Positions 36,368 to 36,927 of a stretch of DNA of 38,602 nt are shown in pieces. Location: NCBI GenBank assembly GCA_018824205.1, contig JAHJGX010000249.1, forward strand, positions 1 to 38,602, in the 5' to 3' direction. The translations under genes and the position numbers were made by a program. The notes under the pieces are model-generated. The model was not told the origin of the DNA and searched no databases. It saw only the letters and a list, made by a program, of their open reading frames with translations. The DNA is from a bacterium. GTDB lineage: Bacteria > Fidelibacterota > UBA2242. Positions within the stretch are counted from its first letter, which is position 1; each line of letters starts with the position of its first letter.

Positions 36368-36479
36368 GGGCGATTAGCTCAGGTGGTTAGAGTACTTGTC
36401 CCGACAAGTCGGGAGGGTCACTGGCCATAATCGATAATGGTTTTATTTAGAATGTCGTTTTTTTGATATTGATATTTTC
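36368..36479 (+). repeat. tRNA-Val-derived repeat unit 1 (112 bp, type A 3' half)
   Basis: GGGCGATTAGCTCAGGTGGTTAGAGTACTTG + TCCCGACAAGTCGGGA + GGGTCACTGGCCATAATCGATAATGG... Confidence 0.95.
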
Positions 36480-36591
36480 GGGTGATTAGTTCAGGTGGTT
36501 AGAGTACTTGTCCCGACAAGTCGGGAGGGTCACTGGCCATAATCGATAATGGTTTAATTTAGAATGTCGTTTTTTTGATATTGATATTTTC
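36480..36591 (+). repeat. tRNA-Val-derived repeat unit 2 (112 bp, type A)
   Basis: GGGTGATTAGTTCAGGTGG... with TCCCGACAAGTCGGGA; same 3' half as unit 1. Confidence 0.95.
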
Positions 36592-36703
36592 GGGCGATTA
36601 GCTCAGGTGGTTAGAGTACTTGTCCCGACAGATCGGGAGGGTCACTAACCATTATCAGTGCTGTACAGATTTTGAATGAAGATTTTTAAATTTTGATATT
36701 TTC
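36592..36703 (+). repeat. tRNA-Val-derived repeat unit 3 (112 bp, type B)
   Basis: TCCCGACAGATCGGGA; 3' half GGGTCACTAACCATTATCAGTGCTGTACAG... Confidence 0.95.
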
Positions 36704-36815
36704 GGGCGATTAGCTCAGGTGGTTAGAGTACTTGTCCCGACAAGTCGGGAGGGTCACTAACCATTATCAGTGCTGTACAGATTTTGAATGAAGATTTTTA
36801 AATTTTGATGTTTTC
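36704..36815 (+). repeat. tRNA-Val-derived repeat unit 4 (112 bp, type B)
   Basis: TCCCGACAAGTCGGGA; same 3' half as unit 3. Confidence 0.95.
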
Positions 36816-36927
36816 GGGCGATTAGCTCAGGTGGTTAGAGTACTTGTCCCGACAGGTCGGGAGGGTCACTGGCCATAATCGATAATGTTTTAATTTAGAA
36901 TGTCGTTTTTTTGATATTGATATTTTC
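36816..36927 (+). repeat. tRNA-Val-derived repeat unit 5 (112 bp, type A)
   Basis: TCCCGACAGGTCGGGA; 3' half as units 1 and 2. Confidence 0.95.

Follow-up and report, generated by a model that had tools for sequence, protein, structure and literature searches.

Of the sites where mobile DNA lands, tRNA genes are the best known, and the known guests are large islands and phages. The described systems closest to the one analyzed here are as follows. Free-standing GIY-YIG homing endonucleases of the SegB type, known from phages T4 and T6, are encoded beside tRNA genes; the GIY-YIG enzyme SegB of phage T6 drives recombination that amplifies a tRNA segment in tandem (PMC13096335). Partial tRNA genes are commonly left by integration, an incomplete copy then lying next to a complete one (PMC9897764). 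Among short palindromes, the CGTC-tagged REP repeats of Bacteroidetes and Chlorobi have a stem of 8–9 bp, a loop of 4–5 nt and no dedicated transposase (PMC3733652), and the Rickettsia palindromic elements (RPEs) enter genes in frame (PMC10969869).

The subject of this study is a recurrent short inverted repeat, called PAL below, that marks partial, non-decoding duplicates of tRNA genes. Many of its loci contain a small ORF whose product has a GIY-YIG domain (PF01541; the protein of genome G036 scores 55 bits). As in the SegB type, the nuclease gene lies beside tRNA genes. The elements differ from that type in lying in bacterial chromosomes, with none in viral contigs, in having shorter ORFs, whose cleavage activity is presumed, and in being linked to partial tRNA copies with arms replaced by a fixed palindrome. 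The copies share with integrase-derived partial genes the placement of an incomplete copy next to a complete one; in contrast, no large island or integrase is seen here, arms are replaced, and tandem arrays are formed. PAL and the CGTC repeats are both short palindromes, but PAL prefers the arms of tRNA copies. The occurrence of PAL in recJ, RNase P RNA and 23S rRNA recalls the RPEs; however, an RPE is about 150 bp long and encodes a conserved peptide, features that PAL, at 16–22 bp, does not have.

An array of partial tRNA-Val(GAC) copies

The window, that is, the whole stretch of 38,602 nt that was analyzed, belongs to genome G000 of the phylum Fidelibacterota. Upstream of an intact tRNA-Val(GAC) gene, and on the same strand, it holds five units with a period of exactly 112 nt (Table 1). 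Four of the five are 100% identical to the intact gene over 31 nt. Beyond this part, the stretch that reads CTTGACATGCAAG in the intact gene (36959–36971, covering position 31 of the stem, the loop and the 3′ strand of the stem) is swapped for PAL, which in the window units is the 16-nt TCCCGA-N4-TCGGGA standing in the place of the anticodon arm. CTTG (nt 27–30), from the 5′ strand of the anticodon stem, is retained, so that PAL takes the place of most, but not all, of the arm. Each unit then continues with GGGTCACTGG or GGGTCACT, corresponding to the variable loop and the start of the T stem (nt 44–53), and with an AT-rich spacer. The 3′ half of the tRNA is missing from the units beyond about nt 53, its place being taken by the spacer, of which there are two types. 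A first-pass annotation of this DNA had described the replacement of the anticodon arm by a palindrome in the five units, and its sequence and every coordinate are correct, although the loss of the 3′ half had escaped it. It was also right that the TCCCGA/TCGGGA stem is the same in all five and that only the central 4 nt differ.

Table 1. Coordinates of the array, its parent gene and the upstream block in the window
Feature	Position	Strand	Remarks
Conserved promoter-like block TTAAATTAAGTCTCGTTTTTTGAAGCACTTACAG..., upstream of the array	36273–36311	+	promoter role inferred
Whole five-unit array	36360–36919	+	period 112 nt; spacer types A A B B A
Unit 1, tRNA-Val(GAC) nt 1–30 (acceptor 5′ strand, D arm, CTTG of anticodon stem)	36368–36398	+	31/31 identity with intact gene
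PAL 1, TCCCGACAAGTCGGGA, replacing anticodon loop and 3′ stem strand	36399–36414	+	loop CAAG
Unit 2, tRNA-Val 5′ part	36480–36510	+	94% identity; two C>T changes
PAL 2, TCCCGACAAGTCGGGA	36511–36526	+	loop CAAG
Unit 3, tRNA-Val 5′ part	36592–36622	+	100% identity
PAL 3, TCCCGACAGATCGGGA	36623–36638	+	loop CAGA
Unit 4, tRNA-Val 5′ part	36704–36734	+	100% identity
PAL 4, TCCCGACAAGTCGGGA	36735–36750	+	loop CAAG
Unit 5, tRNA-Val 5′ part	36816–36846	+	100% identity
PAL 5, TCCCGACAGGTCGGGA	36847–36862	+	loop CAGG
Intact tRNA-Val(GAC), parent gene	36928–37002	+	ARAGORN and Rfam RF00005, 66.7 bits; anticodon arm 36955–36971

Allowing up to 2 mismatches, the window contains 8 PAL sites against 1.5 expected; the maximum among 100 shuffles was 5, and none reached 8. 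The 112-nt unit has no other occurrence in G000. Downstream of tRNA-Val(GAC) is an ORF that, judged by its sequence, looks like the threonyl-tRNA synthetase gene (thrS). On the other side of the array, a defense island (26060–36036) ends about 240 bp before the promoter-like block. It includes a type I restriction enzyme, methyltransferase and specificity subunit (26060–32322) and two ORFs that jointly match the SIR2 defense protein Dsr1, the N-terminal part at 32324–33238 and the C-terminal part at 33238–36036.

The units are partial tRNA copies, not odd tRNAs. No ARAGORN match was obtained for the window units, and no Rfam match even at E ≤ 5. The features by which a tRNA gene is recognized, i.e., a closed acceptor stem, a T arm, a 7-nt anticodon loop and recognition by tRNA models, are not found in them; since the units lack the tRNA 3′ half, the acceptor stem cannot close.

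Folding and conservation of the array

When units 1, 2, 3 and 5 were folded as RNA, the outer TCCCGA/TCGGGA stem was chosen in all four, with z scores of about −2.7 to −2.9 in three units and −1.9 in the fourth. The rival hairpin CTTGTC-CC-GACAAG would have a 2-nt loop, and it is not the fold predicted as the minimum for units 1 and 2. The fixed 6-bp PAL stem was the search criterion, so covariation was assessed for the pairs just inside it, which are free to vary, and not for the stem itself. These inner pairs covary: Watson–Crick combinations were found in 79 of 83 cases against 56 expected from shuffles, in 25 of 46 against 13, and in 10 of 15 against 5.4, counts in which related loci were entered as distinct loops only and which shared ancestry may still inflate.

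The z scores of the folded units would suit a functional leader RNA of the tRNA-Val–thrS transcript, i.e., a tRNA mimic, decoy or attenuator, as would the location of the array between the conserved promoter-like block and the tRNA gene and the presence of similar copies at the tRNA-Val(GAC) locus in three families. The distribution of the array speaks otherwise. Copies of the window type (TTAGRGTRCTTG-TCCCGA) upstream of tRNA-Val(GAC) occur in only 8 of the 245 genomes of the phylum, and in the sister genomes G002, G009 and G013 the array is absent or degenerate. In G013 the promoter-like block abuts the intact tRNA gene, with no array, and in G009 the block lies 58 nt from the tRNA gene with one degenerate partial copy in between. 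The spacers differ wholly from genome to genome. This patchy presence, together with the unconserved spacers, argues against a conserved RNA function, as do the failure to match an Rfam model and the finding that copies of the same type flank many unrelated tRNA genes, upstream or downstream. The leader RNA is thus reckoned to be improbable, and the proposal in the first-pass annotation of a tRNA-like RNA with a non-decoding arm, taken as a conserved function, is not supported by the same evidence.

Other details of the relatives concern how the copies are maintained. In G052 and G236 the partial and intact genes have the start GGGTGAT in common, which is expected if the copies are remade from, or converted by, the host’s own gene. 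In G001 two contigs have the array at an end, suggesting that a repeat was collapsed. In the window units, GTGGTTAG can pair with CTRRCCAT in a long hairpin; a functional role for this fold was considered and rejected, as the hairpin is missing from the units of G001 and G005. The units of family f7 (L089, L090, L302 and L303) contain, after a short T-run, GGGCGATACTGG, which corresponds to the tRNA-Val 3′ end in reverse complement. This stretch, which the window lacks, was considered as an antisense or T-box-like device; a shorter remnant of a tRNA is an equally good reading.

PAL and partial tRNA copies at other loci

Genome-wide PAL statistics for G000 come from pattern searches. The exact pattern has 27 copies in this genome, whereas a reversed control pattern has none. 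About one third of the copies are in or beside tRNA copies. Partial tRNA copies with PAL are found beside tRNA-Ala(GGC) (L046) and as Thr-like (L053), Gly-like (L051) and fMet-like (L054) copies, the last with the D arm replaced. A tRNA-Ser copy has PAL as its long variable arm, with a GIY-YIG ORF immediately after it (L258, contig C233). Further sites fall in intergenic repeats (L039 and L040) and in RNase P RNA, 23S rRNA and recJ, where the last three identities are our reading of the sequence stretches. At L037 (2427–2751), PAL occupies helix tips of the putative RNase P RNA, and nearby downstream an in-frame PAL is found close to the start of the likely recJ. At L038 (2641–2656), it sits at a helix tip in a variable region of what appears to be 23S rRNA, and a second PAL directly follows tRNA-Ala in the same rRNA operon. 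A survey of hairpins in about 240 kb of G000, part of which reads N, contained no PAL, where about 1.7 would be expected from the genome density, too few to rank PAL among hairpins.

Partial tRNA copies are widespread in the phylum. AGAG-N-PAL is present in 69 of the 245 genomes, against 2 forward-strand matches and 1 reverse-strand match for the reversed control, and PAL is enriched in most genomes of the family. The partial copies adjoin intact Val, Ile, Ala, Thr and Arg tRNA genes. Upstream copies retain nt 1–26 or 1–30, PAL, and nt 44 to about 53; downstream copies retain nt 22–26, PAL and the entire 3′ half. From one to three arms are replaced per copy: the anticodon and T arms in L145, the D and anticodon arms in L151 and L153, and all three in L123. 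A control search made without PAL, GGTTAGAGC-N(19–28)-AGGTC, whose spacing excludes normal tRNAs, gave 21 hits, of which 7, from four loci, have a TCCCGA...TCGGGA insert; the other hits of this search show no other evident palindrome and resemble chance matches. A few partial copies do bear other hairpins. At a tRNA-Ser locus of G000 with a GIY-YIG ORF (L255, contig C241), the flanking partial copies hold a different hairpin in the anticodon arm.

Beyond the phylum, 84,980 species genomes were scanned with the pattern GGTTAGAG-N-TCCCGAC-N-GTCGGGA, and phyla were assigned by record title. The scan yielded 78 loci, in Bacteroidota, Ignavibacteria, Calditrichota, Patescibacteria, Planctomycetota, Verrucomicrobiota, Acidobacteriota, Chloroflexota and Zixibacteria, a count that is uninformative on other arm replacements, as the pattern contains PAL. 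The partial copies derive from Met, Asp, Asn, Val, Ile, Pro, His, Lys and other tRNAs. An intact tRNA gene lies within 500 bp in 60 of the 78 loci, always on the same strand. One of the loci, L228 in a Flavobacteriales genome, has seven PAL tRNA copies, mostly at 110–111 nt spacing; with no GIY-YIG ORF within reach, it is a close parallel of the window array.

Two further explanations were weighed. It might be supposed that replication template switching in hairpin-forming DNA locally rebuilt arms into perfect palindromes. The parts replaced are indeed hairpin tips, and tRNA-Val(CAC) of G000 already has a TCCCG/CGGGA anticodon stem. The identical six-base stem, however, is present in Met, Asp, Asn, Pro, His, Lys and Ile copies from unrelated phyla, so that local rebuilding would be insufficient without a shared donor, and we consider template switching very unlikely. 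Alternatively, the partial copies might have been left as scars by phages or ICEs that integrated into tRNA genes, an event that commonly produces such copies (PMC9897764). Here the copies are mostly about 30–400 bp from the intact gene, too close for an integrated island; they form tandem arrays with replaced arms, and the scan pattern had 0 matches in 2.9 million viral contigs. Integration scars are equally hard to credit.

A stronger contender treats PAL as an ordinary REP-like palindrome that a transposase or recombination has spread; duplicated, dead tRNA copies would simply tolerate it, and the GIY-YIG genes would have settled at tRNA loci independently. PAL does occur outside tRNA and GIY-YIG contexts, Y1 transposase genes are present in G000, G036 and G223, and RPEs likewise enter genes (PMC10969869). 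Against this, G001 and G231 hold PAL tRNA copies and have no Y1_Tnp match; thus, Y1 transposases are not required. In addition, PAL replaces arms rather than adding to them. The known REP families do not fit well. Around the G000 PALs there is no constant tag and no CCA tail of the CGTC type, and CGTC is found in tRNA copies only where tRNA nt 25–26 are CG. The GTAG tag of the GTAG REP/RAYT family is likewise not found, the PAL flanks within G000 are heterogeneous, and the Y1 transposase of that family is not found in the PAL-bearing G001 and G231. The REP-like explanation is judged unlikely, also in view of the strand relationships given below.

The first-pass annotation had suggested a small palindromic element inserted in a tRNA. 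The element part holds up, as PAL recurs genome-wide, in other tRNA copies of G000 and across phyla. The insertion part needs revision: PAL sits in partial, duplicated copies and not in a working tRNA gene, and the arms are replaced, not added to. A palindrome scattered over the genome with no link to tRNA sequence had been named as the finding that would count against the idea; the outcome is mixed, in that PAL is scattered yet strongly tRNA-linked.

Linkage to GIY-YIG ORFs and a proposed element

A profile search at the 78 loci detected 27 GIY-YIG ORFs; for 24 of them a PAL copy is found no more than 500 bp away, in every case on the same strand. Random placement of the ORFs gave a mean of 4.5 and a maximum of 11 in 2000 trials, against the 24 observed. 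The converse count started from free-standing GIY-YIG ORFs of five genomes of the phylum: PAL is within the locus, taken as about 1.5 kb to either side as far as the contig extends, in 14 of 21, versus 0 of 6 for UvrC genes. At several loci, the stop codon of the GIY-YIG ORF is the TAG of the copy’s own GGTTAG. Both the constant strand and these shared stops argue against GIY-YIG genes arriving independently of a REP-like PAL. On the other hand, 55 of the 78 loci have no GIY-YIG ORF within 500 bp, some loci being cut by contig ends, and most PAL copies in G000 are away from GIY-YIG genes. This, together with the occurrence of PAL in rRNA, RNase P RNA and coding DNA, suggests that PAL may spread by another route.

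A presence/absence pair is found at tRNA-Val(CAC). In G112, 336 bp comprising a decayed GIY-YIG ORF and a tRNA copy lie between 11-bp repeats of the 3′ end of the gene; G113, of the same genus, is without them. The ORF in this stretch is frameshifted and the palindrome degenerate (TCCTGA...TCGGGA). Such a difference could arise by deletion between short repeats just as well as by insertion. Two hallmarks of free-standing GIY-YIG homing elements are seen, i.e., a linked ORF with the GIY-YIG catalytic domain and, in G112/G113, a presence/absence polymorphism. The first is not found inside the window array itself, which is without a GIY-YIG ORF.

The PAL tRNA copies are probably the footprint of a little-known mobile element beside tRNA genes. 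We lean toward a specific form of this reading, in which PAL and the small GIY-YIG ORFs together make up a tRNA-locus mobile element and the window array is its GIY-YIG-free (solo) form, not a conserved functional RNA. It rests on the anatomy and distribution of the copies, the same-strand linkage of the ORFs, the single presence/absence pair, the match of the window units to the host’s own tRNA and the covariation just inside the stem. The complete form would have a GIY-YIG ORF of about 80–110 codons between an intact tRNA gene and a partial copy of that tRNA, the copy having its anticodon arm (sometimes the D, variable or T arm) swapped for PAL. The nuclease is proposed to cut tRNA genes near the anticodon arm, and repair after the cut would duplicate part of the tRNA gene. 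The PAL-bearing copy, being without the target site, would be immune. The conserved stretches TTAGAG, GGTC and GGTTCGA may have been kept as homology for recombination with the same or another tRNA gene. In the window, one partial copy (nt 1–30, PAL, nt 44–53 and spacer) would have been placed between the tRNA promoter and the gene, and recombination between tRNA-identical parts would have multiplied the single copy to five. Mobility in trans is likewise proposed, and the array may be transcribed as a leader.

More tentatively, these elements may constitute an unnamed class of minimal mobile elements, in at least 10 bacterial phyla, that parasitize tRNA genes with one small GIY-YIG nuclease and a tRNA copy, the target arm being exchanged for a universal hairpin that gives immunity and the tRNA homology being kept for jumping between different tRNA genes. 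No description of the palindrome sequence, or of GIY-YIG genes with tRNA copies, was found in a literature search that covered few subscription journals. If the proposal is correct, a 16–22 bp hairpin whose stem is shared by tRNA copies of unrelated phyla would, with its link to a single small nuclease family, amount to a minimal tRNA-parasitic element. It would account for tRNA pseudogene clusters and assembly breaks next to tRNA genes, and it would offer a test case for the joint evolution of a nuclease and an immune target copy. It also counsels caution in calling such arrays new functional RNAs.

Arrays can take on a higher order. At L143 (G036:C1:2679000-2682500), beside tRNA-Asp, PAL copies at 104-nt spacing are interleaved with identical GIY-YIG ORFs.
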